Below, one piece after another: positions 5,055 to 45,864 of a stretch of DNA of 45,864 nt. Each line of letters begins with the position of its first letter. Position 1 is the first letter of the stretch. The stretch covers positions 1 to 45,864 of the forward strand of contig JACPGB010000023.1 of the NCBI GenBank assembly GCA_016182655.1, written 5' to 3'. The position numbers were made by a program, and so were the translations under genes. The DNA comes from Deltaproteobacteria bacterium. GTDB taxonomy: Bacteria > Desulfobacterota > GWC2-55-46. Below the pieces are notes generated by a model. It was not told the origin of the DNA. It made no database searches and saw only the letters and a program-made list of their open reading frames with translations.

Positions 5055-5245
5055 AACCGGCTGAGATAAGAGATTTGACCGTCGAGGAGATGAAGGCGAA
5101 GGAGACGGAGCTCTCCAAGGAGCTCTTCAACCTGAAGATGCGCCACGCCACCAATCAGCTCGAAAACCCGCTGAAGCTCCGCATCATAAAGAGAGACATA
5201 GCGCGGGTGAAGACCGTCATGGCCGAGAAGGGGAGGTCCAAGTAA
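5051..5245 (+). CDS. rpmC: 50S ribosomal protein L29
   Basis: A 64-residue helical hairpin protein near the tunnel exit. It starts [14 protein letters not shown] and has the family [17 protein letters not shown] and [13 protein letters not shown]. The ATGA overlap with rplP and a TAA directly abutting the rpsQ ATG make an L16-L29-S17 coupled unit. Confidence 0.95.
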
Positions 5246-22830: not shown

Positions 22831-22926
22831 ATGGGGCTGGCCCACAATAAATTGATTCAACTCTGAGTCCGCTTGTCAGATCACGAATTATAAGGATTCA
22901 GGTTACAGACCACGCGAGAGATTACT

Positions 22927-23950: not shown

Positions 23951-24298
23951 ATGCCCATCTCTTCCATACTCAACCTCTTCGGAGGTAGCGACAGGATAAC
24001 CGTCGAGGAGCTCAAGACAATGATGGAGAGTAAAGAGGACATCTCCATCATCGATGTCCGGAACCCCAACGAGTTCAAGTCCGGACACATACCCGGTTGC
24101 GTGCTTATACCCCTGAGCGAATTGGAAGGCGCGGAGAACATCCCCTCAAAGGGCAGGCTCGTGCTATATTGCGCGGCGGGGGTTAGAAGCATGAAGGCGC
24201 GGGATATCCTGAAAGGCCGCGGCATCAAAGACGCCGTGGATCTTAAGGGCGGCATAGGCGCCTGGATAAAGGCAGGCGGAAAGGTCGTCAAGCCCTGA
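23951..24298 (+). CDS. Single-domain rhodanese-like protein
   Basis: A 115-residue sulfurtransferase-fold protein. RITVEELKTMMESKEDISIIDVRNPNEFKSGHIPGCVLIPLSEL is the rhodanese signature, and the active-site loop CAAGVRS holds the catalytic cysteine in LYCAAGVRSM. There is no signal peptide, so it is cytoplasmic. The substrate is not predictable. TGA overlaps the ATG of the next gene. Confidence 0.92.
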   Translation: MPISSILNLFGGSDRITVEELKTMMESKEDISIIDVRNPNEFKSGHIPGCVLIPLSELEGAENIPSKGRLVLYCAAGVRSMKARDILKGRGIKDAVDLKGGIGAWIKAGGKVVKP

Positions 24299-28389: not shown

Positions 28390-28827
28390 TCAGAACACCC
28401 AGAGTATCGGGCAGGGTGATTTTTTAGTGACCCTGTCGATCACCGAGCCCATGAAGAGCTTGCCCATGGGCGAGTACCTGTGCGTGGCCATTACTATGAG
28501 GTCCGCGCGGTGCTCTACGGAGAGAGCGACTATCTCGTGAGAGGCGTCGCCTTCCCTGAGCACGGTCTCTATATTGTGCAGGCCTTCCTCGCGGAGCTTG
28601 TTGGCGGTGGCCTCAAGGAGCTCCCTGCCTTTGTTCAGCCAGTCCTCGTGGATCGCCGACCATTCCTCGGAGTTCGTGACCAGGTGCGCGGCCCTGTACC
28701 ATTTTTCTACCACATGGAGGACCGTGAGCTGGGCCCCGGAGACCTTGCTCAGGTACGCCGCGTGCTTGAGGCCTACGTCGGAGACCTCGGAACCGTCGAT
28801 CGGGCAGATGATGTGTTTGTACTCCAT
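28390..28827 (-). CDS. Universal stress protein, UspA family
   Basis: 145 residues in one USP domain. YKHIICPIDGSEVSDVGLKHAAYLSKV at the start, VATNKL/REGDASHEIVALS in the middle, and the ATP-loop-like ATHRYSPMGKLFMGSVIDRV followed by SPCPILWV at the end. The frame is open to 28878, but GGAGGAGAG upstream of ATG 28827 fixes the start. Probably an ATP-binding USP. It lies downstream of narK on the same strand but has its own promoter. Confidence 0.92.
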   Translation of the reverse strand: MEYKHIICPIDGSEVSDVGLKHAAYLSKVSGAQLTVLHVVEKWYRAAHLVTNSEEWSAIHEDWLNKGRELLEATANKLREEGLHNIETVLREGDASHEIVALSVEHRADLIVMATHRYSPMGKLFMGSVIDRVTKKSPCPILWVF

Positions 28828-28849
28828 TTGTTGTCTCTCCTCCTGCATG

Positions 28850-29000: not shown

Positions 29001-30239
29001 TTAGGAGTAGGTCTTGACCTCTTCGGCGTGTGCGTTGATGGCCTTGCCGCCCTTGCCGACCCAGGTGCGGGTCCAGCGGCGCTGAGCCACCCTTAGTACT
29101 ATGAATACCAGCGCGGAGAAGATACCGAAGGCTATGAAGCCGTAGGAGAAGGAGCCGTAGTACTGCTTGGAGATGCCCATGGCGTTCGGGATGAATCCGC
29201 CGCCGAGCGCGCCTATCTCTCCTATCATGGAGCCGGCTACGGCCGTTGTGATAGGCCAGCGGAGAGGAACGAGCTGGAAGAGCGAGCCGTTACCCATGCC
29301 GAGGAAGGCGAAGGTGCACATGAAGAGTATCGTCGTAGCCGTGATCGACGGCATGGTCGAGTTTATGAACATGAGGATCGTGACCATGACGAAGACGAGT
29401 GTGAGCGAGTTGATGCCGCCCCACCTGTCCGAGACATAGCCGCCGAGGATACGGATGCCGCTACCCATGACCGCGGCCAACATCGTGAGCTGTCCGGCCT
29501 GTATCTTGGTGACGCCGAACTGGTCGTGGAAGTAGGTCGGCAGGAAGTTGGAGAGGCCTATGAACCCGCCGAAGGTGATGATGTAGATGGCATTGAAGAC
29601 CCAGCCGTCCTTCTCAACGAGGCACTTGAGCATCTCTTTCAGGTTGTGGTCGTCGCCCCTGTCCGGGGGCTCCTTGGCGAATATGAGCATTACGAGGAAC
29701 GGGATGAGCATGGTGAACGCCGCGAAGCCGTAGACGTTCTGCCAGCCGTACGATGTGGCAAGGGGCGGGGCCAGAAGCACCGCGAGGACCGTGCCGCTAT
29801 TTCCCGCGCCGGCTATGCCCATCGCGAGGCCCTTGTACTGCGGGGGGAACCAGCCGGAACCGAGGGACAATGCGACGCCGAAGGACGCGCCTGCAATGCC
29901 CAGGAGGACGCCCATGGCGAGCACGTCGTTATATGTGCTCACCGCAAAGTAGCCGTAGATCATCGCTATGAGTATGAGACCCATCTCGACGAGTGCGGCC
30001 CTCTTTCTTCCGATGTACTGGGATAATACGCCCAGCGGGAACCTCATGATCGCGCCTGACATGATGGGCACGGATATCATGAAGCCTTTCTGGGCAGGTG
30101 TCAGGGCGAAGGCCTCGCTGATGAACGGGGCCATGGCGCCGTTGAGCACCCAAATGGCAAAGCAGAAGTCGAAGTACAGGAACGAGGCGAACAGGGTCGG
30201 AGGGTGACCAGCCTTTAAAAATGTCTTGAAACTTGCCAT
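29001..30239 (-). CDS. narK: Nitrate/nitrite transporter, NarK family (MFS)
   Basis: A 412-residue protein with about 12 membrane segments. Both glycine-rich nitrate signatures are present: GIAGASFGVALSLGSGWFPPQYKGLAMGIAGAGNSG in helix 5 and AFLGMGNGSLFQL in helix 11. Arg residues in GAIMRFPLG and SGIRILGG are the conserved substrate-binding arginines of helices 2 and 8. The frame is open to 30287; AAGGAG suits ATG 30239 (ATG 30248 is too close to it). It is transcribed away from the nar operon across a 1.2 kb gap. It is probably the nitrate-proton symporter type, but this is not certain. Confidence 0.9.
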   Translation of the reverse strand: MASFKTFLKAGHPPTLFASFLYFDFCFAIWVLNGAMAPFISEAFALTPAQKGFMISVPIMSGAIMRFPLGVLSQYIGRKRAALVEMGLILIAMIYGYFAVSTYNDVLAMGVLLGIAGASFGVALSLGSGWFPPQYKGLAMGIAGAGNSGTVLAVLLAPPLATSYGWQNVYGFAAFTMLIPFLVMLIFAKEPPDRGDDHNLKEMLKCLVEKDGWVFNAIYIITFGGFIGLSNFLPTYFHDQFGVTKIQAGQLTMLAAVMGSGIRILGGYVSDRWGGINSLTLVFVMVTILMFINSTMPSITATTILFMCTFAFLGMGNGSLFQLVPLRWPITTAVAGSMIGEIGALGGGFIPNAMGISKQYYGSFSYGFIAFGIFSALVFIVLRVAQRRWTRTWVGKGGKAINAHAEEVKTYS

Positions 30240-30573
30240 TTTCTCCATTCTCCTTTCTGAAATTTTCCACCCGGATTGCCAACACATAAGCGGAATGATG
30301 GTACTGGGGCGTCTTCTGGAGAGCCTGGAGGCGGTGTTGCGGCGCGGGATTAAGTCTTCTGGCAGGTATGGATTACTTTAATTAAATATTACTTTTGACC
30401 TTGGCCAGGATATACTTATGCCCTTTAGTGAATAAGCCCCCCGAATCCACCTTTTTCCACTTTATGGTATTGGTCAGTTACTCTAAATCTATCAACTTTG
30501 CAGTTTCATGTCAAGACTTAAATCACAATAAATGGGGTAAAATGCGAAATATATTCATGATTAATTAAAATAA

Positions 30574-32023: not shown

Positions 32024-32659
32024 ATGGATTTAAAGAGTTGTAAAAGGGTTTTCTGGAAAGGGCTGCAACTCGGTTTGGCCGCGTTCCTCGTCACGGGCGC
32101 TCTTGTGACGGTCGAGGCCGCTGATCAGGCCACTCCGGCCCCGGCTGTTGCTCCGGCTGAGACGGCGCCTGCTGTAGAGGCTGCTCCGGCCCCTGCAGAG
32201 CCTGGTGACGCGAGGCTTGGTGAGCTCTACTTCACGGGCGGCAAGAGGTTCGCAAGCGGCGCGCCTCCGTGCATCTCGTGCCACAGCGCAAGCGTCGGCT
32301 CCCTTGGCGGCGGCGTGCTTGGACCGAACCTGACGAAGGTATACGCCGATGAGTCAAAGAACCCGCTCATCAATTCCGCCTGGATCAATAACCCGTCGAC
32401 CCCCGTCATGGGCACCGTATTCTCCAACAGGCCCGTTGGCGACGACGAGGTAGGGCACTTGAGGGCGTTCTTCGCTCAGCAGGCTCAGGGCAATGTTGCT
32501 CCCTCTTCGACCGGGACCTTCACGATCGTGGGCATAGGCGGCTTCATAGGCATACTGATCATATTCAACATAATCTGGAGCGGAAGGTACAGGAACAGGA
32601 ACAAGGGCACCGCCCACGATGCCTTATGGAGAAACTACGGCGGAAAAGGAGGAAGGTAA
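32024..32659 (+). CDS. Membrane-anchored monohaem cytochrome c of the nar operon (NarC-like)
   Basis: A 211-residue protein. A signal peptide or anchor covers about residues 13-32. An Ala/Pro-rich linker to about residue 60 is followed by a class I cytochrome domain with CISCH at 83-87 and a likely axial Met129 (STPVMG). A C-terminal membrane helix at about 164-188 and a basic cytoplasmic tail complete it. AAAGGAGGT at 32008-32016 gives a strong ribosome site for ATG 32024. The TAA abuts the narG ATG directly. A cytochrome c gene ahead of narG is known from Thermus (narC) and from nxr operons of nitrite oxidisers. It probably exchanges electrons with the NarGHI complex on the periplasmic side. 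Confidence 0.88.
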   Translation: MDLKSCKRVFWKGLQLGLAAFLVTGALVTVEAADQATPAPAVAPAETAPAVEAAPAPAEPGDARLGELYFTGGKRFASGAPPCISCHSASVGSLGGGVLGPNLTKVYADESKNPLINSAWINNPSTPVMGTVFSNRPVGDDEVGHLRAFFAQQAQGNVAPSSTGTFTIVGIGGFIGILIIFNIIWSGRYRNRNKGTAHDALWRNYGGKGGR

Positions 32660-35600
32660 ATGTCTAACTGGATACAGGATGAAATCAACCCCGGTAAAAG
32701 GGGATGGGAAGAGTTCTACAGGAACCGCTGGCAGTACGACAAGACCGTAAGGTCGACTCACGGCAACAACTGCACCGGCGGCTGCTCCTGGATGGTATAC
32801 GTAAAGGACGGCATCATCACCTGGGAGCTCCAGGCCGTTGACTACCCGAAGCTCGACCAGTCTCTGCCGCCTTACGAGCCGCGCGGCTGCCAGAGAGGTA
32901 TCTCCGCCTCCTGGTATGTCTACAGCCCCGTGAGGATCAAGTACCCCTACGTCAGGGGCATCGTCATCGACGCCTGGAAGGAAGCGAGGTCGAAGCACTC
33001 CGACCCCGTCGACGCCTGGAGGTCGATCGTCGAGAACGCCGAGCTCTCCAAGAAGATAAAGTGGTCGAGGGGCAAGGGCGGATTCCGCAGGTTTGACTGG
33101 GACACCGCCGCCGAGATCATCGCCTCGGCCCAGATATACACCATAAAGAAGTACGGTCCGGACAGGAACATAGCCTTCTCCCCGATCCCGGCCATGAGCC
33201 AGATCAGCTACACCTCCGGCGCCCGCTACAACCAGCTCATCGGCGGCGTGCACCTTAGCTTCTACGACTACTACACAGATCTCCCGAACGCTGAGCCCGA
33301 GGTATGGGGCGAGCAGACCGACTCGTGCGAAAGCGCGGATTGGTACAACGCCGGCTACGTCGTCATGAACGGCGCGAACCCGAACATGACCAGGACCGCC
33401 GACGCGCACTTCGTCTCCGAGCTCAGGATGGGCGGCGCGAAGCTCGTCGTCTGCGCCCCGGACTACTCGCAGGTCACCAAGTACGCCGACATGTGGGTGC
33501 CCTTGAAGACAGGTTCCGACACGGCCTTCTGGCTCGGCGTGAACCACGTCATCCTTAAGGAGTTCTTCGTCGACAAGAAGACGGCCTACTTCGACGCCTA
33601 TTGCAAGAACTACACCGATCTGCCGAACCTCGTGAAGCTCACGAAGGGCAAGGACGGCTACGAGCACGGCCGGTATCTTAAGGCCTGCGATCTCGCCCCC
33701 TACGCCGACGAGGACAACCCGGAGTGGAAGTTCTGCATGTGGGACGAGAAGACCGGCAAGGCCCGCGTCGTGAACGGCGGCATGGGCTACAGGTACCCCC
33801 AGAAGCACGAGAGCCACGGCAAGTGGAACACGCTCCTTAAGGACGGCAAGACCGGCGAGGACATCTCTGCGGCCCTTACCCTCCTTGACATAAAGGACGA
33901 CGCCATCGAAGTCGTGTTCTACGAGCTCGACAAGCCCGAGAAGTACAAGAGGCAGGTGCCCGTAAAGTACGTGGAGACCAAGGAAGGCAGGGTCCCCGTA
34001 ACCACGGTATTCGACCTCTACATGGCGCATTGCGGCGTAGGCAGGAAGGGCCTTTCCGGCGACTACTGCAGGAACTACGACGACGACAGGGGCTTCTCCC
34101 CGGCATGGCAGGAGAAGTACACCGGGATCGGCCGCGACACCATCATCCAGATCGGCAGGGAGTTCGCCTCCAACGCCGAGGTGACGAAGGGCCGCTCGAT
34201 GATCATCTGCGGCGCCTCGTTCAACCACTGGTACCACTCCGACCTCATGTACAGAGCGGGCATGAACGCCCTCATGCTCTGCGGTTGCGTCGGAAGGAAC
34301 GGCGGCGGCCTCCAGCACTACGTCGGACAGGAAAAGCTCGCTCCGTTCGACTCATGGGGCCAGATAGCCCACTCGCTCGACTGGGTAAGGCCTCCGAGGC
34401 TCATGTCCAACCCGATCAACTGGTACCTCCACACCCAGCAGTTCAAGTACGACTCGGCCATCACCGACTACCACGTCGTGCCGGACAAGTCAGCGCTTGA
34501 ATACCAGCACACCGCCGACTACGCCGTAAGGTCGGTAAGGCTCGGCTGGATGCCTGGGTACCCGCAGTTCAACAAGAGCTCGATCGCCCTTTACGAAGAG
34601 GCCCAGAGGTCCGGCGCCAAGACCGACGCCGAGGTCGTGGACTACGTCGTAAAGCAGCTTAAGAGCGGCTCGCTCGACTTCGCCATCGCCGATCCGGACG
34701 CCCCGGAGAACTGGCCGAGGGTCTGGTTGATCTGGCGCGCCAACGCGCTCGGTTCCAGCGCCAGAGGCCAGGAGTACTTCTTCAAGTTCCTCCTCGGCAC
34801 CCACAACAACCTCGTCACCGAGGAAGTCGCGAAGCCGTATCTTAAGGAGCTCAAGTACAGGGAGTCGCCGCTCGGTAAGCTCGACCTTCTCGTCGACCTT
34901 AACATGCGTATGAACACGACCCCGACCTACTGCGACATCGTGCTCCCGGCGGCCCACTGGTACGAGAAGGAAGACATCAACACGACCGAGCTCCACTCCT
35001 TCATCCACCCGATGGGCGCGGCCGTACAGCCGAACTGGGAAGCGAAGAGCGACTACGACGCCTACAGGTTCCTCTCTGAGAAGTTCTCCGAGATAGCCAA
35101 GAAGCACTTCCCGAGGCCGGTCAAGGAAATCATGACCGCCCCGCTCGGACACGATACCCCGGGCGAGATCGCCCAGCCGGCGCTTAACGGCGTGCAGGAC
35201 TGGAAGAAGGGTCAGTGCGAGGCCATCCCCGGCAAGACCATGCCGTCCATCAGCGTGGTCGAGAGGGATTACGCCAACATCGACAAGCAGTACATCTCCG
35301 TAGGACCCCTCATGAAGGGCAAGTACGGTTTCCACGGCATCATGCTCGACGGAAAGGACCTCTACGAGAACTACCTCAAGCAGGAGCACGTAGACTCCGT
35401 CGACTTCAACGGCCAGAAGTTCATCTCCATCAGGACCGCCAAGGAAGCCTGCAACTTCGTCATGGCCTTCTCCGGCACGACCAACGGTGAAGTCGGCTTC
35501 AGGCAGTGGACCGAGGAAGAGCACCACACGGGCCTCCACGCCGAGACCTACGAAGCGGCCAAGAAGGCCGTCAGGGAAATATACCCCGAGGTCGAGTTCA

Positions 35601-36379
35601 GGGCAGGCGCGCACGGCCTTGCCGAGGAGATCGCGGGTCCTGACAGGAACTTCACGGTCACCTACGATGACATCGTAGCCCAGCCGAGGCGCTGGCTCAC
35701 CAGTGCTCTCTGGACCGGCGACAACAGAAAGGGCCGCGCGTACGGCACCTGGACCATCCAGACCGAGCGCAGGGTGCCCTGGAGGACGCTCACGGGCAAG
35801 CAGCACTTCTACCTCGATCATCCGATATATCTCCAGTTCGGCGAGGCGCTGTGCTCACACAAGTACAAGCTGAACCCGGCGAGGATGAACGAGCTCCAGA
35901 AGTCGGACAAGACCGACGCTCTTATGCTCAACTACATCACCCCTCACAGCAAGTGGGCGATCCACTCAACCCACTATGACAACCTGAGGATGTTGACCTT
36001 GTCCCGCGGCGGAAACTCCGCCTGGATCAACGACAGGGACGCCGAGAGCGTGGGCATAAAGGACAACGACTGGATCGAGGCTTACAACGACAACGGCATA
36101 TTCGTCTGCCGCGCCGTAGTAAGCGCCAGGATCCCCACCGGGACCTGCTTCGCGTACCACTCTCAGGAAAGAACCATCAACATCCCGAAGGCGGAGCAGA
36201 GGAACAAGATCAGGGGCGGATTCCACAACTCGCTCACCAGGCAGCGTCTGAAACCGACCCTTATGACCGGCGCCTACGGGCAGTTCTCCTATGCCTTTAA
36301 CGGCTGGGGCCCGATCCCGATCATCAGGGACACCACAGTGTTGGTGAGAAAAATGAGAAATCAGGAGGTGAAGTGGTAA
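32660..36379 (+). CDS. narG: Respiratory nitrate reductase, alpha subunit (Mo-bisMGD)
   Basis: 1239 residues, against about 1247 in E. coli. The FS0 [4Fe-4S] ligands are His34, Cys38, Cys42 and Cys77 (STHGNNCTGGCSW and EPRGCQRG). The molybdenum ligand is Asp221 in EQTD. Strong similarity runs throughout, including HPHxxR-like SIHSTHYDNLRMLTL near the C-terminus. There is no twin-arginine signal, so it is the cytoplasm-facing type. It catalyses nitrate + 2 e- to nitrite; the homologous Nxr enzymes run the reverse reaction. Codon use leans to ATC for Ile, unlike the ribosomal genes. The stop overlaps narH. Confidence 0.97.
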   Translation: MSNWIQDEINPGKRGWEEFYRNRWQYDKTVRSTHGNNCTGGCSWMVYVKDGIITWELQAVDYPKLDQSLPPYEPRGCQRGISASWYVYSPVRIKYPYVRGIVIDAWKEARSKHSDPVDAWRSIVENAELSKKIKWSRGKGGFRRFDWDTAAEIIASAQIYTIKKYGPDRNIAFSPIPAMSQISYTSGARYNQLIGGVHLSFYDYYTDLPNAEPEVWGEQTDSCESADWYNAGYVVMNGANPNMTRTADAHFVSELRMGGAKLVVCAPDYSQVTKYADMWVPLKTGSDTAFWLGVNHVILKEFFVDKKTAYFDAYCKNYTDLPNLVKLTKGKDGYEHGRYLKACDLAPYADEDNPEWKFCMWDEKTGKARVVNGGMGYRYPQKHESHGKWNTLLKDGKTGEDISAALTLLDIKDDAIEVVFYELDKPEKYKRQVPVKYVETKEGRVPVTTVFDLYMAHCGVGRKGLSGDYCRNYDDDRGFSPAWQEKYTGIGRDTIIQIGREFASNAEVTKGRSMIICGASFNHWYHSDLMYRAGMNALMLCGCVGRNGGGLQHYVGQEKLAPFDSWGQIAHSLDWVRPPRLMSNPINWYLHTQQFKYDSAITDYHVVPDKSALEYQHTADYAVRSVRLGWMPGYPQFNKSSIALYEEAQRSGAKTDAEVVDYVVKQLKSGSLDFAIADPDAPENWPRVWLIWRANALGSSARGQEYFFKFLLGTHNNLVTEEVAKPYLKELKYRESPLGKLDLLVDLNMRMNTTPTYCDIVLPAAHWYEKEDINTTELHSFIHPMGAAVQPNWEAKSDYDAYRFLSEKFSEIAKKHFPRPVKEIMTAPLGHDTPGEIAQPALNGVQDWKKGQCEAIPGKTMPSISVVERDYANIDKQYISVGPLMKGKYGFHGIMLDGKDLYENYLKQEHVDSVDFNGQKFISIRTAKEACNFVMAFSGTTNGEVGFRQWTEEEHHTGLHAETYEAAKKAVREIYPEVEFRAGAHGLAEEIAGPDRNFTVTYDDIVAQPRRWLTSALWTGDNRKGRAYGTWTIQTERRVPWRTLTGKQHFYLDHPIYLQFGEALCSHKYKLNPARMNELQKSDKTDALMLNYITPHSKWAIHSTHYDNLRMLTLSRGGNSAWINDRDAESVGIKDNDWIEAYNDNGIFVCRAVVSARIPTGTCFAYHSQERTINIPKAEQRNKIRGGFHNSLTRQRLKPTLMTGAYGQFSYAFNGWGPIPIIRDTTVLVRKMRNQEVKW

Positions 36380-37899
36380 TGGATATAAGAGCTCAGTTAT
36401 CGATGAGTTTTCACATGGACAAGTGCATCGGCTGCCATACCTGCAGCGTGTCCTGCAAGAACGTGTGGACATCCCGCAGAGGCGCCGAGTACATGTGGTG
36501 GAACAACGTTGAGACCAAGCCCGGCGCCGGCTACCCCCTCACCTGGGAAGACCAGGAGAGGTACAGGGGCGGCTGGGAGGTCTCCGGCGGGTCCTTGAGG
36601 CTTAAGCTCCTCAAAGGCCCCGGCAAGATCAGGACGCTGGCTAACATCTTCTTCCAGCCGAACCTGCCGACCGTGGACGACTACTACGAGCCGTTCACCT
36701 ACGACTATCAGAACCTCTTCAACGCTCCGGCCGGAGACGACCAGCCGACCGCGCGTCCGAAGTCGCTCATCACCGGCGAGTTCATGGAGAAGATAGTCCT
36801 CGGCCCCAACTGGGACGACGACATGGCCGGAAGCCCGCTCTACTCCGCGAACGACCCGAACCTCAAGGGCCTTTCGGAGTCGCAGAAGGAGATGCTCACC
36901 AAGTTCCACAAGCTCTTCTTCTTCTACCTCCCGAGGATATGCAACCACTGTCTCAACCCCGCGTGCGTCGCGTCCTGCCCGTCAGGCGCGATATACAAGA
37001 GGGGCGAGGACGGCATCGTGCTCATTGACCAGGATACCTGCAGGGCCTGGAGGTTCTGCGTGAGCGCCTGCCCGTACAAGAAGCCCTACTACAACTGGGC
37101 GAACGGCAAGAGCGAGAAGTGCATATTCTGCTACCCCAGGACCGAGACCGGCCAGCCGAACGCCTGCGCGCACGCATGCACCGGCAGGATCAGGTTCGTA
37201 GGCGCCCTTTTATATGACGCCGACAGGATCGAAGACGTCGCCAAGACCCCCGACGACAGGCTCGTCGAGGCGATGAGGGAGATAGTCCTCGACCCGAACG
37301 ACCCGAGGGTAGTCGAAGAGGCCAGAAAGGCCGGCATCGACGAGAACTGGATAAGGGCCGCTCAGCAGTCGCCTGCGTACAACCTCTTCAAGAAGTGGCG
37401 CATAGCGATGCCGAACCACCCCGAGTTCAGGACCGTTCCGATGAACTTCTACATCCCGCCCCTCTCTCCGATCCTTCACAACGCGAAGGCGGAGAACGGC
37501 GGAACGTTCGATCCCGAATCGACCGAGTTCTTCAACGAGATAGACAAGATGAGGATCCCGGTCAGGTTCCTCGCCAACATGCTCTCGGCCGGCAACGAGC
37601 AGGTAGTGCTCGAGTCGCTGAAGAAGCAGATGGCGGTCAGGATCTACATCCGCCAGAAGAGGGTCGGCGACATCGGCGACTCCAAGGCGAAGAGCGTCCT
37701 TTCGTCCGTCGGGCTCACCCCGCAGGACGCCGAGGACATCTACAGACTCACCTCGCTCGGAACCTTCCAGGAGAGGTTCGTGATCCCCGAGACCCACCGC
37801 GAGCACATGACCACGGTGGACCCGAGGACCATGTACGAGAAGAGGGGCTCCGTAGGCTTCGGACCGAAGAAGAAGGAGTTCCTTGGGAGGACCTGGTAG
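36379..37899 (+). CDS. narH: Respiratory nitrate reductase, beta subunit (iron-sulfur)
   Basis: 506 residues. The first cysteine group CIGCHTCSVSCKNVW lies in the N-terminus. Later CNHCLNPACVASCPSGAIYKR, CRAWRFCVSACPYKK and CIFCYPR...CAHACTGR complete four clusters. The Trp in CRAWRFC replaces a cysteine and gives the [3Fe-4S] cluster, as in E. coli CRGWRMC. AGGAGGT at 36364-36370 points to ATG 36379, overlapping the narG TAA; the in-frame GTG 36373 is less likely. It carries electrons from the NarI haems to NarG. Confidence 0.96.
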   Translation: MDIRAQLSMSFHMDKCIGCHTCSVSCKNVWTSRRGAEYMWWNNVETKPGAGYPLTWEDQERYRGGWEVSGGSLRLKLLKGPGKIRTLANIFFQPNLPTVDDYYEPFTYDYQNLFNAPAGDDQPTARPKSLITGEFMEKIVLGPNWDDDMAGSPLYSANDPNLKGLSESQKEMLTKFHKLFFFYLPRICNHCLNPACVASCPSGAIYKRGEDGIVLIDQDTCRAWRFCVSACPYKKPYYNWANGKSEKCIFCYPRTETGQPNACAHACTGRIRFVGALLYDADRIEDVAKTPDDRLVEAMREIVLDPNDPRVVEEARKAGIDENWIRAAQQSPAYNLFKKWRIAMPNHPEFRTVPMNFYIPPLSPILHNAKAENGGTFDPESTEFFNEIDKMRIPVRFLANMLSAGNEQVVLESLKKQMAVRIYIRQKRVGDIGDSKAKSVLSSVGLTPQDAEDIYRLTSLGTFQERFVIPETHREHMTTVDPRTMYEKRGSVGFGPKKKEFLGRTW

Positions 37900-37902: not shown

Positions 37903-38451
37903 ATGGTCATGGAAAAGAGCTTATATTCACAGCTTGCAGGGCTGCTTGAATATCCGAAAGAGGATATGAAGCTCAGGGCAGAGGAGTGCGTCAAGACGCT
38001 CTCCTCCACGCCCGGCCACCCGGAAGAGTCTGTGGAAGAGCTCAAGAAATTCCAGAAGGACCTGGAGGAGATACCCCTTGATGATCTTCAAGGGGTATAC
38101 TCCTACACCTTCGAGCTTACTTCGGACTTCACGCTCGACATGGGATACCATCTCTACGACGGCTTCAAGAGGGCGAGCAAGCTCTCCTCCATAAAGTCGA
38201 TGTACAACGAGAACGGCTTCCCGTTCGACGAGATTGCCAGGGGCGAGCTCCCGGACCATCTGCCTGTCATGCTCCATTTCCTCGGTTTCGTCAAGGACGA
38301 GTCCCTTAAGAAGGACTTCAAGGAATCGTTCGTGATCATGGGGATGGAGAAGCTCCACAAGAACTTCGAGAAGAACAGAAAGAGCATATACTTTCACGTG
38401 ATCAGCGCAATCTACAGAGTCATAGAAAAGGATGTTAAGGAGGCTAAATAA
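37903..38451 (+). CDS. narJ: Nitrate reductase molybdenum cofactor assembly chaperone
   Basis: A 182-residue TorD/NarJ-family chaperone, shorter than E. coli NarJ (about 236). It has LLEYPKEDMK near the start, the YVETFELTSDF-like YSYTFELTSDFTLDMGYHLYDG, and DELPDHLPVMLHFL, the NarJ core pattern. It guides cofactor insertion into apo-NarG and is not part of the final complex. It starts 3 nt after narH, and its TAA overlaps the narI ATG. Confidence 0.92.
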   Translation: MVMEKSLYSQLAGLLEYPKEDMKLRAEECVKTLSSTPGHPEESVEELKKFQKDLEEIPLDDLQGVYSYTFELTSDFTLDMGYHLYDGFKRASKLSSIKSMYNENGFPFDEIARGELPDHLPVMLHFLGFVKDESLKKDFKESFVIMGMEKLHKNFEKNRKSIYFHVISAIYRVIEKDVKEAK

Positions 38452-39149
38452 TGGACAAGGTCCTGTTCGGCGCAATGCCGTACGTGCTGATCTTTACCGC
38501 AATAGTCGGCGCGATATGGAGATTCAGAAGCAACAAGTACACATGGTCGTCGCAGTCCTCGCAGTTCCTGGAGAATAAGACCCTTTTCTTCGGTTCGTTC
38601 CCATGGCACTACGGGATCATAACGATCCTTCTCGGCCACATATTCGGGATATTCTTCCCGAGCGCGATACTCGCGTGGAACGGCGTGCCGGTCAGGCTCT
38701 ACATACTCGAGCTCACCGCGCTCTCGTTCGGTTTCCTGGCGCTCTTCGGCCTCCTCGCCCTCATCTACAGGAGGCTCACGAACTCCAGGGTCAAGGCCCT
38801 TACCAGCTCCTGGGACGTGCTCATACTCATCGTCCTCCTCATACAGGTGGTGACCGGCGTCCTCAACGCCACCATGTACAGGTGGGGCTCCAACTGGTAC
38901 GCCGGAGCGGCTGTACCCTGGATCTGGTCGATCCTGAAGCTCAACCCCAATGTTGACTATGTGGCCACGCTTCCCCTCATCACCAAGGTCCACATCTTCA
39001 ACGCGATGATATTCATCGGCTTCATACCGTTCTCGAGGCTCGCCCACTTCGTGGTATTGAACCCTTACAAGTACCTCGTAAGGCCTTACCAGGTCGTGAG
39101 GTGGTACAAGAGGACACCGCAGACCGAGAACATCGTACAGTATAAGTGA
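38451..39149 (+). CDS. narI: Respiratory nitrate reductase, gamma subunit (dihaem cytochrome b)
   Basis: A 232-residue membrane protein with five segments. Candidate haem ligands are His53 and His63 in FPWHYGIITILLGHIFG, and His181 and His199 in KVHIFNAM and RLAHF. The 18-residue spacing of the latter pair is the same as E. coli His187/His205. WSSQSSQFLENK before the first pair is also family-typical. It oxidises quinol at the periplasmic side. A terminator follows 6 nt after the stop. Confidence 0.95.
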   Translation: MDKVLFGAMPYVLIFTAIVGAIWRFRSNKYTWSSQSSQFLENKTLFFGSFPWHYGIITILLGHIFGIFFPSAILAWNGVPVRLYILELTALSFGFLALFGLLALIYRRLTNSRVKALTSSWDVLILIVLLIQVVTGVLNATMYRWGSNWYAGAAVPWIWSILKLNPNVDYVATLPLITKVHIFNAMIFIGFIPFSRLAHFVVLNPYKYLVRPYQVVRWYKRTPQTENIVQYK

Positions 39150-39362: not shown

Positions 39363-41063
39363 ATGGCAAAGTTGACAAAATGGCAGCCGGAAAATGAACA
39401 GTTCTGGCGCGAGACCGGCAGCGGGATAGCGTGGCGCACATGCGGCGTCACCACTTTCTCGCTGATATTTTCCTTCGCCACGTGGTTCGTCATGAGCGCT
39501 GTGGTCGTGAGGCTTCCCGCAATAGGCTTCAAGTTCACGACGATGGAGCTCTTCTGGCTCGCGGCGATACCCGGGTTCGCCTCCGGCATCTTGAGGCTCA
39601 TCCACTCGTTCTTCATCCCGATACTCGGGACAAGGCCTGTCGTAAGCATAGCGACGATCATCAAGCTCATACCGATGGTCTGGCTTGGTTACGCGGTGCA
39701 GGACCTGAACACTACGTGGGGAACCTTCATGATTATCGGGTTCCTCTCAGGCATGGGCGGCGGAGACTTCTCCTCCTACATGCCTTCGACCTCAATCTTT
39801 TTCCCGAAGAGGCTCCAGGGCCTCGCGATGGGCATCCAGGCCGGCATAGGCAACTTCGGCGTTAGCGTCGTCCAGTTCGTAACGCCCGTCATCATCGGCG
39901 GCGCTGTCCTCGGCGCCATCGCCGGCGGCCCGCAGATATTCACGAAGGCCGACCCGGTCAAGGGCGCGATAACCGTTACGAAGGAAGGCGACATAGTTAA
40001 GGACGTAGTGGTAAACAATCCGGAGCTCGTCTCCGCGATAATCGTCACCAAGGACGGCGACGTGGTAAAGGACGTGGTCCTTCAGGAAACAGATACCGTA
40101 AAGGCGTTGAAGGAAGACGTCACAAAGAACGAAAAGGGCGCCATCACTGAGGTAAGGAAGTCCGCTGGCTACAAGCTGGATGTCAAGAAGAACGACGCCG
40201 GTGTTGTAACCGATGTTGTGCTCAAGAAGGGGATAAAGAAGGGCATGTGGGCCCAGAACTCCGCGTTCTGGTATATACCTTTCCTCATCCTGGCATTCAT
40301 CCTCTGCGTGCTATTGCTCAAGAGCATCGACCCTGCGGCGCTCGGGGTCAAGAGCGGAGGCTTCAAGAAACAGTTTGAAATACTCAGCACGAAGGACAGG
40401 GCCCTGACGCATACCTGGAACTGCACGATAACCTACATCGCGTCATTCGGTTCGTTCTCAGGTTTTGCGGCCGCGTTCCCGATGATGATAAAGGTCATCT
40501 ACGGCGGTTTTGACGGCTCGCCGGACCCCCTGCAGTACGCCTACCTCGGGCCTCTCATCGGCGGCGTCTCCCGCGCGGTTACCGGCCCGATATTCGACAA
40601 GTGGGGCGGGTCCAAGGGCATGTTATGGTGCTTTATAGGGCTCATCATCGGATGTCTGGCCCTCATCTTCGGAGGGTACCTTAAGCCTACCGGGCTTGAG
40701 CAGTTCAGCGGGTTTGTCCTCCTTATGCTCTGGATATTCCTGATGACCGGCATAGCCAACGCGGCGACCTTCCGCCAGTACCCGATAGTATTCGCGTATT
40801 CGCCAGCCAAGGGCGCGCAGATGCTCGGCTGGACAGGTGCCTGGGCGGCATTCGGCCCGTTCATCTTCACCAGCCTCGTCGGCGCCTCCATAACCAAGTA
40901 CGGCAGCGCCGTACCGTTCTTCGCAGGCGCGGCGATCTACTATGTGTATGCCAACTTCCTCAACTGGTGGTATTACACCAGGAAGGGCGCCGAGAGGTAC
41001 GACTGGGGCAATTCCGGCGGTACCTGGTGGGACAAGGCCAAGGGGTCCTGGCAGGGGCAGTAA
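39363..41063 (+). CDS. narK1: NarK-family nitrate/nitrite transporter with a repeat-containing insertion
   Basis: A 566-residue MFS transporter, about 125 longer than its neighbour. The N-terminal half has GFLSGMGGGDFSSYMPSTSIFFPKRLQGLAMGIQAGIGNFGVS, the first nitrate signature; the second is ANAATFRQYPIVF. A soluble insertion of about 95 residues (196-294) lies between PQIFT and WAQNSAFWY. It contains two near-identical 23-residue units (AITVTKEGDIVKDVV, AIIVTKDGDVVKDVV) and a weaker third. The rest aligns with the following paralogue. AAGGAG at 39348-39353 sets the start. Nitrate uptake or nitrite export is expected. Confidence 0.93.
   Translation: MAKLTKWQPENEQFWRETGSGIAWRTCGVTTFSLIFSFATWFVMSAVVVRLPAIGFKFTTMELFWLAAIPGFASGILRLIHSFFIPILGTRPVVSIATIIKLIPMVWLGYAVQDLNTTWGTFMIIGFLSGMGGGDFSSYMPSTSIFFPKRLQGLAMGIQAGIGNFGVSVVQFVTPVIIGGAVLGAIAGGPQIFTKADPVKGAITVTKEGDIVKDVVVNNPELVSAIIVTKDGDVVKDVVLQETDTVKALKEDVTKNEKGAITEVRKSAGYKLDVKKNDAGVVTDVVLKKGIKKGMWAQNSAFWYIPFLILAFILCVLLLKSIDPAALGVKSGGFKKQFEILSTKDRALTHTWNCTITYIASFGSFSGFAAAFPMMIKVIYGGFDGSPDPLQYAYLGPLIGGVSRAVTGPIFDKWGGSKGMLWCFIGLIIGCLALIFGGYLKPTGLEQFSGFVLLMLWIFLMTGIANAATFRQYPIVFAYSPAKGAQMLGWTGAWAAFGPFIFTSLVGASITKYGSAVPFFAGAAIYYVYANFLNWWYYTRKGAERYDWGNSGGTWWDKAKGSWQGQ
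39948..40244 (+). repeat. Internal tandem repeat inside narK1
   Basis: Two units with a 69-bp (23-residue) period begin at 39966 and 40035, followed by a diverged third copy with the AITEV...VVTDVVLKK pattern. Third-position differences between units show that this is not a recent duplication. The paralogue at 41297 has only a short linker here. Confidence 0.8.
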
Positions 41064-41114
41064 TCCAGACCTGCCACACATGGTTTTTGTCAGGCAGTCG
41101 GCAGTCATTAAGGC

Positions 41115-41145
41115 AGGGTGGGCGCTCGCGCCCACCCTTTTTTTA
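41115..41145 (+). terminator. Terminator of narK1
   Basis: GGGTGGGCG and CGCCCACCC pair around CTCG, followed by seven T. The stem is nearly identical to the terminator after narI. Confidence 0.9.
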
Positions 41146-41296
41146 CGCACCGTTTTGACCCGCTTTCGATTTGCAGAGATGAAGTGCTGGACATGCCCTG
41201 CCGACCGGGTCGTCGCACGCAGGAATAGCTCGCTTTTCGTCCTGCGCCCGGCGCGCCAAACCCGGCTGGGGCAGAGTTACAAAAGGAGTGCCTTCA

Positions 41297-42616
41297 ATGG
41301 CTTTGTTGAAAAGATGGGAGCCTGAAGACCAGCGGTTCTGGAAGGGCACGGGCTCCAGGATCGCCTGGACGACGCTCATAATCACCACCATAAGCCTCAT
41401 ACTCTCGTTTTCCACATGGTTCGTCATCAGCGCGATCGTCGTCAGGCTCCCGCAAATAGGTTTCAAGTTCGACACCATGCAGCTGTTCTGGCTCGCCTCG
41501 ATGCCTGGCCTCGCGGGCGGGACCTTTCGCCTTGTCCACATGTTCCTGATACCTATATTCGGCACAAGGGCCGTGATCGGGGTCGCCAACTTTTTAAAGA
41601 TAATACCGTGCGCGGGCCTCGCCTACGCGGTCCAGGACCCGGCGACCCCCTTCTGGGTGTTCATAGTGCTTGCGTTCCTCGCCGGCTTCGGCGGCGGGGA
41701 CTTTTCATCCTTCATGCCCTCGACCTCGATGTTCTTCCCCAAGAGGCTCCAGGGCGCCGTGCTCGGCGTTCAGGCCGGCCTTGGCAACTTCGGCGTCTCC
41801 CTTGCCCAGTTCGTGACCCCATGGATCATAGGTTTCGCGGCCTTCGGGGCCGCAATGGGCGGCCCGCAGGTCTTCACATCGGGGGAGATAGCAAAGGACA
41901 TCTGGCTCCAGAACGGAGTCGTCTGGTACGTGCCCATTCTCATTATCTTCGGCGTTCTCTCGTTCCTTTTCCTCAAGAGCGTGCCTATCAAGGCCTCTTT
42001 CACCGAACAGCTCGACATATTCGGGAACAAGCACACCTGGTTCATGACGCTCCTCTACATCATGACATTCGGTTCGTTCTCGGGTCTTGCCGCGACGTTC
42101 CCGATGATGATAAAGGCTCTCTACGGCACGTTCCCGAACGCTCCGGACCCGCTTAAGTACGCGTTCTACGGCCCGCTCATCGGCGCGGTCTCCCGCGTCA
42201 TATTCGGGTTCGTATCCGACAAGACCGGCGGCGCGATAATCACGACGATCTGCGGCATAGGCACGATAATCTTCTCGTTCCTCATCATGCCGTCGCTCGC
42301 GCCGACCTCGTTGGATTCGTTCAATACATTCGTCTACCTCATGCTCACGATATTCTTCTTCACGGGCATAGGCAACGCCTCGACCTTCAGGCAGATACCG
42401 ATGATCTTCTCCCCGAGGCAGGCTGGCGGCGTCCTCGGCTTCACCGGCGCTATCGCGGCGTACGGTCCGTTCATCTTCGCGCTCCTCATAGGCGCGGCGA
42501 TAGCGAAGACCGGCTCGCCGAAGCCCTTCTTCTGGGGCCTCATCGTTTTCTGCGCCATCTGCACCATAATCAACTTCTACTACTACAACAGGAAGGGCGC
42601 CGAGAAGCCCTGCTAG
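41297..42616 (+). CDS. narK2: NarK-family nitrate/nitrite transporter
   Basis: A 439-residue MFS transporter with 12 predicted segments. It shares the N-terminal KRWEPEDQRFWKGTGSRIAW type with the preceding gene and has both nitrate signatures (AGFGGGDFSSFMPSTSMFFPKRLQGAVLGVQAGLGNFG; GIGNASTFRQIPMIF). The conserved arginines VVRLPQIGF and SRVIFGF are present. AAGGAG at 41283-41288 places the start at ATG 41297 rather than GTG 41288. The pair of adjacent NarK paralogues is common beside narG in denitrifiers. Here each has its own terminator. Confidence 0.94.
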   Translation: MALLKRWEPEDQRFWKGTGSRIAWTTLIITTISLILSFSTWFVISAIVVRLPQIGFKFDTMQLFWLASMPGLAGGTFRLVHMFLIPIFGTRAVIGVANFLKIIPCAGLAYAVQDPATPFWVFIVLAFLAGFGGGDFSSFMPSTSMFFPKRLQGAVLGVQAGLGNFGVSLAQFVTPWIIGFAAFGAAMGGPQVFTSGEIAKDIWLQNGVVWYVPILIIFGVLSFLFLKSVPIKASFTEQLDIFGNKHTWFMTLLYIMTFGSFSGLAATFPMMIKALYGTFPNAPDPLKYAFYGPLIGAVSRVIFGFVSDKTGGAIITTICGIGTIIFSFLIMPSLAPTSLDSFNTFVYLMLTIFFFTGIGNASTFRQIPMIFSPRQAGGVLGFTGAIAAYGPFIFALLIGAAIAKTGSPKPFFWGLIVFCAICTIINFYYYNRKGAEKPC

Positions 42617-42688: not shown

Positions 42689-42872
42689 GCCCTTTCAAGC
42701 CCGATCTGCGCCTTGCACCGTATCTTCCAATTTATATAATTCCGTGACTGCCGCACTTGACGATTCCCATGAACCCCGATATATTTCATGCATACAGAGT
42801 CCTTCACCGGAACTCTCCGATTTTTAAGCCGTTTTACCGCTCAGGCGGCGCTAAAACCTCAAGGAGGGAAAA

Positions 42873-43193
42873 ATGGGTAAGTACGACAGGATCGACAAGT
42901 TCGGCATCGAGAAGATGGAAAAGGCCGAGTACCAGAAGCGCCAGGAATACGTCCTCAAGAAGTGCAAATGTCCGACATGCCCTACCTATGTCGCCGGGGA
43001 CGCGCCTACAGGGTACTGCTTCCCGCTTATAGGAACGTCCAAGAAGATACAGTGGGAAAAAGACTGCGTTTGCGCAACATGCTCGATCTACAAGGAATAC
43101 GAGCTCAACCACACATTCTATTGCACGAGATGCTCCCAGGTCTGCCAGACGATGAAGGTCGAGGGCATATCCGACCAGGGCGGCGGCGGCTAA
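42873..43193 (+). CDS. Ten-cysteine small protein, DUF2769-like
   Basis: A 106-residue protein with ten cysteines at 31, 33, 36, 49, 65, 67, 70, 84, 87 and 91. CKCPTCPTY...GYCFPLIG and CVCATCSIYKEYEL...FYCTRC match what I know of the DUF2769 family, seen in methanogens and anaerobic bacteria and of unknown function. There is no signal peptide, so metal or Fe-S binding in the cytoplasm is likely. AAGGAGGG lies ahead of ATG 42873. It is flanked by terminators on both sides and so is monocistronic. The position after the nar transporters suggests, but does not prove, a link to nitrogen oxide metabolism. Confidence 0.85.
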   Translation: MGKYDRIDKFGIEKMEKAEYQKRQEYVLKKCKCPTCPTYVAGDAPTGYCFPLIGTSKKIQWEKDCVCATCSIYKEYELNHTFYCTRCSQVCQTMKVEGISDQGGGG

Positions 43194-43237
43194 AGACTAT
43201 TGCCTTTAGAGCAGGTAGCGGCCTGTATTATTCGATA

Positions 43238-43280
43238 GAAGGGGGCCGGACCCATAGGGGGCCGGCCCCCTTCGTTTTTT
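43238..43280 (+). terminator. Terminator of the DUF2769-like gene
   Basis: GAAGGGGGCCGG (43238-43249) and CCGGCCCCCTTC (43262-43273) pair perfectly over 12 bp, followed by GTTTTTT. Confidence 0.9.
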
Positions 43281-43393
43281 GGGCCAAAAGGCTTGAAAAA
43301 GGCTCTTTGGACTGGACAACCGGCCTCCCGTTGTAGTAAGATGAAATACACCCCAAATCAAGGGAGAATTCATACTTAACAGGAGAGGTCTAA

Positions 43394-43906
43394 ATGGAGA
43401 ATACTACCCCGGAGCAGGCGAAAGCAATCATAAAGAAGTGGCTTGAGGAGAACCACCACCAGGTCAACGATATCAAGGACGATAACGTCAACTTCCACCT
43501 GGAGGTCGATTATCCCCTTGGTTCCATGAAGAGACAGCGGGTCATACAGCCCAAGGACTATCCCGGGCTCATCGTGGTCCTTAACGGCGTCGCCATCGCA
43601 AACGAACACGTCGAGAAGATGAAGAAGATGAACGAGAACGACCGCGACGCTTTTTACGGCGAGATCAGGAAGGACCTTATCTTCCTGCAGAACTCATACG
43701 ACATGAACCTTGACGACCAGGGTGTAGCCAAGCAGGTCCAGTTCTCGTACGAGTTCTACGTAGACAGCCTTACCAAGACCAAGCTCTACGAGGGCCTCCT
43801 CCTCAACCACAGGACCCTCCTTTACATAATAACCAAGTTCAACGACGAGTTCGGTATGCCGATCATGCCTTCCGCCAACAAGGGCGAGACCGTAGGCCAC
43901 GCCTGA
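43394..43906 (+). CDS. DUF2299-like protein
   Basis: A 170-residue soluble protein. The N-terminal AKAIIKKWLEENHHQVNDIKDDNVNFHLEVDYPLGSMKRQRVIQPKDYPGLIVVLNGVAI resembles the DUF2299 pattern (WLxEEG, FHxxVxYP, IxQPK), a family mainly known from archaea with no known function. The C-terminal half is helical (YEFYVDSLTKTKLYEGLLLNHRTLLYIITKF), as in those proteins. AGGAGAGG precedes the ATG. The hemerythrin gene follows after 29 nt on the same transcript. The family call is from memory. Confidence 0.6.
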   Translation: MENTTPEQAKAIIKKWLEENHHQVNDIKDDNVNFHLEVDYPLGSMKRQRVIQPKDYPGLIVVLNGVAIANEHVEKMKKMNENDRDAFYGEIRKDLIFLQNSYDMNLDDQGVAKQVQFSYEFYVDSLTKTKLYEGLLLNHRTLLYIITKFNDEFGMPIMPSANKGETVGHA

Positions 43907-43935
43907 TAGCGGGGCGCGCCGAGGAGGTTGTTCCG

Positions 43936-44733
43936 ATGTCAATGAAGCTCGAAATAAAATACCGTTGCACGCAGGGCACCTGTTGCGCCATCTGCCGCGA
44001 TGGTACAATAGCCTTCGACGAGGCCGCGTTCAATGACCTCAAGGCCGCTTATGAAGACCCGGAGCTTTTCAGGAGCCCGAAGGGCTACTGCAAGCTCGGG
44101 TTCTCCCGTGCATTCAAGATCAAGGAGATAGTCCGGCTCGCGCCCGAGGCCGACGGGGCCGACGAACAGTGGCTCGACGAGAACGACCCGATCGGCACCC
44201 TCATCCTCGAGCACAGGCAGATATTGAAGATGTTCGACGAGGTAGAGGCACAGATAAAGAGGCGCGACATCAAGGCCCTCTGGGTCTCGACCTATGAGCT
44301 TGCCAACGCCATTCACCTCCACTCGGGGTTGAAGGAAGAGGAGGTACTCTTCCCGGCGATGCGCGATGTCCTGGCCTTCGGCGAATCCCTTACCGCCATC
44401 ATAAAAGAGGAGCACAGGGAGATCATGACGCTCCTCTCGAACTTCCGCTCGGCCCTCGAGGAGGAGACCATCCTTGACAGCATCATAACCTCCATGATCG
44501 TCTCTTTGAGGGGACACATCAGGAAGGAGGACCAGGAGTTCTTCGAGATGGTCGACAAGTGCCTCGACAGGAACATGAGGATCGGGATAGCCGAGGGGAT
44601 GAGTAAGATAGAGGCGGAGTTCACGCCCGCCCCGATAACCGAGATGCAGAGGCGCGTCAATGAGGCGAGGGGCGAGTTCGACGAAGAAGTCATCGCCTTA
44701 AGGGAGCTCACGCACCAGGGGTGCTGCCACTGA
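43936..44733 (+). CDS. Hemerythrin-domain protein with extra N- and C-terminal cysteines
   Basis: 265 residues. The N-terminal about 75 residues carry Cys11, Cys16, Cys17, Cys20 and Cys52 (CTQGTCCAIC). A HHE hemerythrin four-helix bundle follows with candidate di-iron ligands His93, His129 with the following Glu pair (HSGLKEEE), His160 and GHIRKEDQEFFEM. The protein ends in Cys-Cys-His. GAGGAGG lies ahead of the ATG. Hemerythrin domains bind O2 or NO or serve in iron-cluster repair. The added cysteines suggest a second metal or redox site. A terminator follows. Confidence 0.88.
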   Translation: MSMKLEIKYRCTQGTCCAICRDGTIAFDEAAFNDLKAAYEDPELFRSPKGYCKLGFSRAFKIKEIVRLAPEADGADEQWLDENDPIGTLILEHRQILKMFDEVEAQIKRRDIKALWVSTYELANAIHLHSGLKEEEVLFPAMRDVLAFGESLTAIIKEEHREIMTLLSNFRSALEEETILDSIITSMIVSLRGHIRKEDQEFFEMVDKCLDRNMRIGIAEGMSKIEAEFTPAPITEMQRRVNEARGEFDEEVIALRELTHQGCCH

Positions 44734-44859: not shown

Positions 44860-45240
44860 CTATACCGGTATGTGGATGTAGACCATGTAGAGCCAGACGA
44901 GTATGAGGGTGCCGCCGAGCCAGCTCAGGTACTTGAACGCCCGTCTCTTTTTGGACCGCACTATCAATATCTTGAGTAGGAAGACGCAGAGCCCGGAGCC
45001 CCAGCCGAGGAGGCGGAGAAACCCGAACCCCTCGTACCAGAAGGCGAGGACGGCGAGTATGACGTATATGGCGAGGGCCGTAAACCCGTTGAAGCGGTGT
45101 ATCTTCCTCTCTACTATGGAGGCGGCCTTTACGAGCTGGAGCCCGCTTATGAAGCTGGAAGTGGCCAGTATAAGCCCGAAGCTCGCAAGCACGATGGAAG
45201 CGGTGCTGAAGACGCCGAGCATTTTGAGTATCCGTTGCAT
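44860..45240 (-). CDS. Small four-helix membrane protein coupled to nosD
   Basis: 126 residues with four predicted membrane helices (about 7-30, 50-70, 73-95, 102-122). Histidines flank helix 2 (ERKIHRFNGFTALAIY) and end helix 4 (YMVYIHIPV), like small b-type cytochromes, but no family is certain. The ATG overlaps the nosD-like stop by one base (TAATG), so they are translationally coupled. A role with the nos system or as a membrane redox component is inference. Confidence 0.6.
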   Translation of the reverse strand: MQRILKMLGVFSTASIVLASFGLILATSSFISGLQLVKAASIVERKIHRFNGFTALAIYVILAVLAFWYEGFGFLRLLGWGSGLCVFLLKILIVRSKKRRAFKYLSWLGGTLILVWLYMVYIHIPV

Positions 45241-45864
45241 TATCTTACCCCGTACACGAGCTTGAAGACATTTTTCTGTATCAGGTAAGTGACTACCCCG
45301 AGGTAGATGAGGACGACCGGGAGTATGAGGAACACATTCGGGAGCGTCGTGTTCTCCGAGACCTCGTTGTCCTTCGAGTCGCTTACCACAATGCTGTACA
45401 TGTTCCGGAGGGCGGTATTCTCGACGATGACATTGTTGTTGGAGGACCAGAGCGTGACGCCGTTCCAGGTGTTGAGGTTGGCGGTGTTGTCCCGTATGAC
45501 ATTGCTGTTCGAGTAGCTTATGAAGAGGCCCTTGTCGTCGTTCCTGTTCGCGTTGTTGCCTTCGATCGCGTTGTGGTGCGACTTCTCCAGATAGATGCCG
45601 TAGTATTCGTTCCTGCCCGCCGCGTTGCCGGTGACGGCGTTCTCGCTCGAGTCATATAAGGCTATGCCGTAGACGTTCCCGTCCGCGACGTTGCCGCTCA
45701 CTTCGGAGTTCGTTACGCTCTTGAGGGTTATCCCCGAGCTCTGCGACCCTTTCGCCGTGAACCCGGATATGACGACGCCTTCGGTGCCGGAGGCGAGTAT
45801 CACCGGCTCTTCCTTTACGGCGGGCCTTACGACGGTAAACTCGGGCCCCTTGACGGACTTGAGC
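45240..45864 (-). CDS. nosD: NosD-like parallel beta-helix protein, C-terminal part (5' end outside window)
   Basis: The frame is open to the window edge; 207 codons are visible. Repeats of about 22-24 residues of the type NSxVSGNxAxxNxYGIxLxxS form a right-handed beta helix (CASH/NosD repeats). A C-terminal membrane helix (VFLILPVVLIYLGVVTYLI) ends the protein. NosD is a periplasmic accessory for copper-site maturation of nitrous oxide reductase. Similar beta-helix proteins exist elsewhere, so the symbol depends on nos genes lying outside. Confidence 0.7.
   Translation of the reverse strand, partial: LKSVKGPEFTVVRPAVKEEPVILASGTEGVVISGFTAKGSQSSGITLKSVTNSEVSGNVADGNVYGIALYDSSENAVTGNAAGRNEYYGIYLEKSHHNAIEGNNANRNDDKGLFISYSNSNVIRDNTANLNTWNGVTLWSSNNNVIVENTALRNMYSIVVSDSKDNEVSENTTLPNVFLILPVVLIYLGVVTYLIQKNVFKLVYGVR

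Follow-up and report, generated by a model that had tools for sequence, protein, structure and literature searches.

A respiratory nitrate reductase gene cluster of a deltaproteobacterium is followed, directly 3' of its nitrate transporter genes, by three genes encoding a cysteine-rich DUF2769 protein, a DUF2299 protein and a hemerythrin-domain protein (hereafter HHE), which raises the question of what such a trio does for nitrate respiration. The initial annotation of this locus proposed a redox or nitric oxide (NO)-handling module, directed against the nitrosative stress caused by nitrite reduction. Here, the trio was considered both in the whole stretch of DNA that contains it (45,864 nucleotides, contig JACPGB010000023.1, hereafter the window) and in the genomes where its members recur.

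The nar cluster and the genes that follow it

The features of the window on which the analysis rests are listed by position and strand.
28390..28848, minus strand, universal-stress-like protein
29001..30287, minus strand, MFS nitrate/nitrite transporter NarK0
32024..32659, plus strand, cytochrome c in a NarC-like position (CISCH haem motif)
32660..36379, plus strand, narG (TIGR01580, 1393.9 bits, cut-off 1084)
36379..37899, plus strand, narH (gene order and homology across loci)
37903..38451, plus strand, narJ, dedicated chaperone (gene order and homology across loci)
38451..39149, plus strand, narI (TIGR00351, 135.9 bits, cut-off 105.6)
39363..42616, plus strand, narK1 (39363-41063) and narK2 (41297-42616)
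42873..43193, plus strand, DUF2769 protein, 106 aa (PF10967, 46.7 bits, cut-off 22.8)
43394..43906, plus strand, DUF2299 protein, 170 aa (PF10061, 89.3 bits, cut-off 22.8)
43936..44733, plus strand, HHE, 265 aa (PF01814, 51.9 bits, cut-off 25.3)
44860..45240, minus strand, memb126, a small hydrophobic and probably membrane protein
45240..45863, minus strand, NosD-like beta-helix protein with a C-terminal hydrophobic anchor, cut by the window end

The enzyme encoded 5' of the trio is a respiratory nitrate reductase NarGHI, as judged from the equivalog scores of NarG and NarI and from conserved cofactor regions, the window NarG matching E. coli NarG in the HGNNCTGGC and FYDYYTDLP regions of the alignment. 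The cytochrome c in the NarC position had no match in Pfam. In Nitrospirota, the NarK0 gene lies 5' of the universal-stress gene and narC, co-directional with nar, and the universal-stress-like gene sits between NarK0 and narC in loci L176 and L177.

The three ORFs of the trio are found where they had been placed, 3' of narK1 and narK2, with coding-like codon usage and Shine-Dalgarno sequences. The initial description of their products was also borne out: the DUF2769 protein passes its Pfam model and has exactly 10 cysteines, the hemerythrin passes its own and has eight cysteines in the window copy, and the protein first called 'DUF2299-like' is in fact a full member of the family, its match covering profile positions 2-138 of 138. 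The idea of a three-gene unit is correct in that the trio is conserved, but the real unit is larger, since memb126 and the NosD-like gene belong to it and carry it past position 44733.

Terminator-like hairpins 3' of narK1 (41115), narK2 (42654) and DUF2769 (43256), together with promoter-like sites 5' of DUF2769 (42757-42785) and DUF2299 (43313), all of which are consensus matches only, suggest that the trio is probably not a single transcript in the window. DUF2769 is probably monocistronic there, and only DUF2299 and HHE, separated by a gap of 29 bp, would form an operon. The assumption that the three genes are one operon was dropped for the window, given the terminator-like hairpins that separate genes. 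In Nitrospirota, DUF2299, HHE, NosD-like and memb126 genes are co-directional and tightly spaced 3' of narK. The regions 5' of narC, DUF2769 and DUF2299 shared no FNR/DNR-type box and had no excess of such boxes over shuffled sequences, and anti-phage defence models (PADLOC) gave no match. Elsewhere in the window, positions 22001-24000 have a G+C content of 48%, against about 56% in the otherwise uniform flanks, and codon usage did not mark a 237-aa ORF of this low-G+C stretch (22927-23640) as coding.

A conserved cassette tied to one NarG clade

Gene maps revealed the order narC-GHJI-narK-DUF2769-DUF2299-HHE-NosD-like/memb126 in other genomes. Within the GTDB family of the window, DUF2299 was found in 25 and DUF2769 in 24 of 30 genomes; 23 genomes have both, and in 20 of these the two genes are no more than about 1.4 kb apart. 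A DUF2299 profile scan of bacterial genomes, one per species, yielded 48 loci, mostly from metagenome-assembled genomes of Deltaproteobacteria and some from Nitrospirota; genomes bearing the cassette are mostly metagenome-assembled, many of them from groundwater. HHE immediately adjoins DUF2299 in all 48 fetched loci, and nar genes (31/48) and a NosD-like gene (33/48) were often present on the fetched stretch, many contigs being short. One locus (L144:1576-3678) has two DUF2299 copies, one on each side of HHE.

In four genomes (G010, G011, G018 and G083), the block is split, with DUF2769 remaining next to nar and HHE next to DUF2299, and both parts are kept. In G083 (L109/L151), DUF2299-HHE lies beside a Moco/molybdate cluster, nar and DUF2769 being on a different contig. 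DUF2299 is also found directly 3' of mogA, the last gene of a full moaA-mop-modABC-moaCDE-mobBA-moeA-mogA cluster, in three loci (L146, L147 and L149) and 3' of moeA-mogA in two others (L148 and L154), a neighbourhood that belongs to a single sublineage and is partly explained by the clustering of nar and Moco genes. In L120, L129, L130 and L136, DUF2299-HHE lies away from nar among unrelated genes.

Among 297 genomes of the window's phylum, DUF2769 was detected in 17, DUF2299 in 12 and both in 11 (Fisher p 4e-15, an optimistic value given species relatedness). NarG was found in 23 of the 297 genomes: the 11 genomes with a NarG of 71-100% identity were exactly the 11 carrying both DUF2769 and DUF2299, and the 12 with a NarG of 45-55% identity had neither. 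In a sample of 246 genomes from a second phylum, Nitrospirota according to their record titles, DUF2299 was present in 10; it occurred in nine of the 10 genomes with a NarG of at least 72% identity and in none of the 10 with a NarG of 46-54% identity. The exceptions, G355 with a partial NarG and G383 with DUF2299 and no NarG, are small genomes that may be incomplete. All 23 trio-associated sequences formed one group of the NarG tree, with a support of 100, and a single label change accounted for the trio association, compared with 14.1 in shuffles. Pairwise distances of the cassette proteins and of NarG were correlated (0.81-0.86 over 17 loci), which may reflect shared ancestry only.

Twenty nar loci of other NarG clades were also fetched, 19 of which could be mapped (L181 had no nar calls). 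None of these 19 loci contained DUF2769, DUF2299, NosD-like or memb126 genes; a cytochrome c gene was found 5' in seven, and a hemerythrin-domain gene in two. The latter lies near nar in G127 (L188, about 2.0 kb) and G189 (L190, about 10.8 kb), just 5' of the cytochrome c gene or shortly 3' of narI, and its presence at these clusters indicates that hemerythrin and nar genes may have become linked on more than one occasion.

The trio is tied to nitrate respiration and tracks one NarG clade in two phyla, and DUF2769, DUF2299, HHE, memb126 and the NosD-like protein make up a conserved accessory cassette of this clade. The association with nitrogen oxide genes, which was part of the initial annotation, was upheld by the neighbourhood survey: rather than independence from such genes, it revealed a strong link to nar in two phyla.

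Properties of the cassette proteins

Every one of the 10 cysteines of the DUF2769 protein is invariant among 23 homologues. They follow the patterns CxCxxC..C and CxCxxC..CxxCxxxC, that is, two similar blocks and a CxxCxxxC, and a sequence search of solved structures returned an insignificant ribosomal match as its best result (E 0.16). DUF2769 is optional in the cassette outside the main group, since it was found in only one of the seven genomes reached via such loci; it is carried by the Nitrospirota loci L177 and L179. In L104 (G022), a tandem duplicate (4688-5002 and 5184-5495) adjoins DUF2299-HHE. Divergent DUF2769 copies also exist in genomes without this nar (L058:9872-10375 and L059:9928-10206), one having a Tat-like signal and lying near an efflux cluster, the other lying near a copper-type P-ATPase gene and a DUF302-like gene (recognised by eye), and these neighbours suggest a general metal-binding role for the domain. 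DUF2299/DUF2769 matches were found in the control genomes of Sulfolobus acidocaldarius and Methanosarcina acetivorans, and tblastn searches of a plasmid collection with both proteins gave none. A full-text search of a literature collection identified no paper with DUF2769 or DUF2299.

The DUF2299 protein has no cysteine. By sequence, it resembles 3cxj, a DUF2299 protein of Methanothermobacter thermautotrophicus (E 5.6e-16), which is also the top match of its predicted structure (pLDDT 86.7; Z 19.5 over 144 residues, 1.5 A). Lower-scoring matches, at Z 8-11 over about 110-135 residues, are to YbjN/AmyR and type III secretion chaperones, and the predicted fold is the one shared by YbjN and the class I members of these chaperones. 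The protein had no Pfam match to the chaperone or YbjN families, and no secretion system or effector was recognised in the mapped DUF2299 neighbourhoods. The shared fold alone shows no function.

HHE combines an N-terminal domain, in which C11, C16, C20 and C52 are invariant among 28 sequences and C17 is not conserved, with a hemerythrin-type bundle and a C-terminal tail that is usually Cys-Cys-His (CCH). Bundle residues H93, H129, H160, H194 and E198 are invariant in the same 28 sequences. Four residues past H129, where a glutamate is expected, 27 of the 28 have a lysine, followed by invariant glutamates at +5 and +6 (E134/E135), so that the exact make-up of the putative iron site, including the two bridging carboxylates of a complete di-iron ligand set, is unsure. 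In the predicted model, residues 80-228 form a helical bundle close to the hemerythrin-like structures 2p0n, 3cax and 6q09 (Z 16-17), and the N-terminal domain, barely probed by the structure search, is beta-rich; a sequence search of solved structures gave nothing meaningful. HHE scores 18.3 bits against the 204.7 required by the RIC equivalog TIGR03652, and its identification as a classical RIC/YtfE was rejected on this failure. It had no Pfam match to ScdA_N, its four-cysteine pattern differing from the CC pair of that domain. Iron in YtfE is held by four histidines and two glutamates, and YtfE can donate iron to Fe-S assembly (PMC9268430); the comparison of HHE with YtfE also draws on PMC9052748. 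Away from nar, the window's genome encodes a 225-aa fusion of DUF2249 with a hemerythrin domain (G000:C9:212-811), a domain pair mentioned for Thermus DrpAB relatives.

Of the two remaining members, memb126 has one invariant His-x-x-Asn-Gly motif, and the window copy of the NosD-like protein, cut by the window end, fails the curated NosD model (TIGR04247, 49.4 bits against 300). No nosZFY genes were recognised near the NosD-like gene, and copper delivery to N2O reductase was dropped as its role for lack of recognisable nos genes nearby.

Function of the cassette and relation to known systems

The cassette probably helps to build, protect or control NarGHI rather than serving general NO defence. 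We tentatively favour, at slightly less than an even chance, the view that the trio, memb126 and the NosD-like protein are a lineage-specific accessory cassette of one NarCGHJI clade that most likely matures or repairs the enzyme. DUF2299, acting beside NarJ, would hold an unfolded or cofactor-free Nar subunit. The iron or Fe-S centres of NarG and NarH would be supplied or repaired by HHE, with its putative YtfE-like iron site, four-cysteine domain and CCH tail, and DUF2769, through its two cysteine clusters, could carry metal or Fe-S to the same end. From the periplasmic side, the NosD-like protein and memb126 would work as a pair, perhaps with NarC/NarI as their target. We infer each of these biochemical steps from the observed gene content, order, co-occurrence, clade specificity and invariant residues and from the predicted DUF2299 fold. 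Maturation or repair is favoured because of the strict tie to the NarG clade, the chaperone fold, the Moco neighbourhood, the iron and cysteine chemistry and a precedent in Thermus, where DrpA and DrpB are encoded 3' of narCGHJIKT (PMC6282519, PMC7694296) and in the absence of both, NarG is still made but nitrate reductase activity is low (PMC6282519). Against it, co-occurrence with the NarG clade is also expected from a regulator, a protector or the co-transfer of linked genes, and the NarJ chaperone is already present.

A nitrite/NO-handling module would have HHE bind or reduce nitrite or NO like YtfE and NorA, and DUF2769 buffer thiols or metals, in protection of the cell or of NarGHI. The five invariant bundle residues of HHE and its likewise invariant E158/E162 do recall the iron site and acidic channel of YtfE, and eNOR-like genes occur inside the cluster in three loci, where the segment between narI and the cassette (L137:235-7718, L139:349-8010 and L142:3326-9028) holds two different heme-copper-oxidase pairs and an SCO-like gene, with cytochrome b/ferredoxin genes also in L137 and L139. 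In the 500-aa subunit I of this insert, GHPEVY is replaced by GHPSQQ, an eNOR trait (criterion from PMC8756737); the 478-aa subunit I has a different motif, FGHILMNMAMY. The window's genome likewise has an eNOR-like cluster on another contig (G000:C18:51041-52537; L175 about 8.2-13.8 kb), which encodes a cupredoxin subunit, subunit I, an SCO-like protein and cytochrome b, and its eNOR-like gene shares 69% identity with its counterpart in the L137 insert. However, an eNOR-like gene is present in most but not all trio genomes, and five genomes that are 94-100% complete (G003, G010, G011, G014 and G020) lack any close eNOR-like gene although they carry nar together with DUF2769 and/or DUF2299, which, for this type of NO reductase, argues that the trio tracks the NarG clade and not NO reductase. 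Other NarG clades of the same phyla should also make nitrite, yet their genomes lack DUF2299 altogether; HHE fails the RIC model; and the cysteine-free DUF2299, with its predicted chaperone/adaptor fold, makes the trio something other than a uniform 'redox' set. The initial annotation was thus right about the nitrogen oxide link, but its nitrosative-stress reading, for which the YtfE-like ligands and the three eNOR-like loci speak and which we consider unlikely, is possible rather than favoured. A set that senses nitrate, oxygen or redox state and regulates nar expression or activity in a DrpAB-like manner, by protein-protein contact instead of DNA binding, appears distinctly unlikely: its position after narCGHJIKT matches that of drpAB, through which nar expression depends on nitrate (PMC6282519), proteins of the DUF2299 fold include regulators that bind other proteins (e.g., ExsC and CesT-CsrA), and iron and cysteine sites could sense O2 or NO, but the trio has no recognisable DNA-binding or signalling domain, no shared FNR/DNR-type box and no DUF2249. 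That the genes are passengers, moved with the nar island without a shared function, is very improbable; given its single appearance on the NarG tree, much of the pattern could stem from one inherited linkage event, but in two phyla the linkage has outlasted rearrangements and a divergence of NarG down to about 70% identity, and both parts are kept in the four genomes with split blocks. The data do not separate maturation, NO protection and regulation decisively.

With this locus, two protein domains of unknown function become linked, across two phyla, to a single defined clade of an enzyme, and the question arises of which need of the cassette-linked NarG is absent from other NarGs. Should the cassette serve maturation or repair, it would join NarJ and DrpAB among the few accessory factors dedicated to nitrate reductase, and would place a secretion-system chaperone fold at work on a metalloenzyme. 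It is a lesser but real possibility that the cassette is a previously undescribed assembly/repair system dedicated to one NarGHI clade, combining DUF2299, a Cys-tailed hemerythrin-fold iron protein, a ten-cysteine carrier and a periplasmic NosD-like/membrane pair; if true, this would give DUF2299 and DUF2769 their first function. In the literature search, no published nar cluster of this type, with hemerythrin, NosD and narK genes, came to light.

Several known systems resemble parts of the cassette. Like YtfE/RIC/NorA/ScdA, HHE has a bundle with four histidines and a conserved C-terminal glutamate ligand, acidic residues beside the third histidine and a separate N-terminal cysteine domain; it differs by a C-x4-C-x3/4-C...C pattern where these proteins have the DfCCgG of ScdA_N, by a one-residue shift between the second histidine and the glutamate pair, and by its CCH tail. 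DUF2299 shares its predicted fold with class I type III chaperones and YbjN/AmyR, but only 3cxj is related by detectable sequence. The NosD-like protein shares with the NosD of nitrous oxide reductase clusters a beta-helix, a Pfam NosD match and, in full-length copies, a signal-peptide-like N terminus, but lies far below the curated score and is partnered with memb126. Similar in gene order is the narCGHJIKT-drpAB locus of Thermus thermophilus, in which, as here, genes for a cytochrome c, NarGHJI and tandem MFS transporters are followed by those for small proteins of uncharacterised domains; there, losing DrpA and DrpB affects the expression as well as the activity of the enzyme. The trio had no DUF2249 match, the two DUF2249 genes of the window's genome being on other contigs, and the small proteins differ: DUF2249/DUF1858 proteins (DrpA/DrpB) in Thermus, and DUF2769, DUF2299 and a hemerythrin-domain protein in the window.
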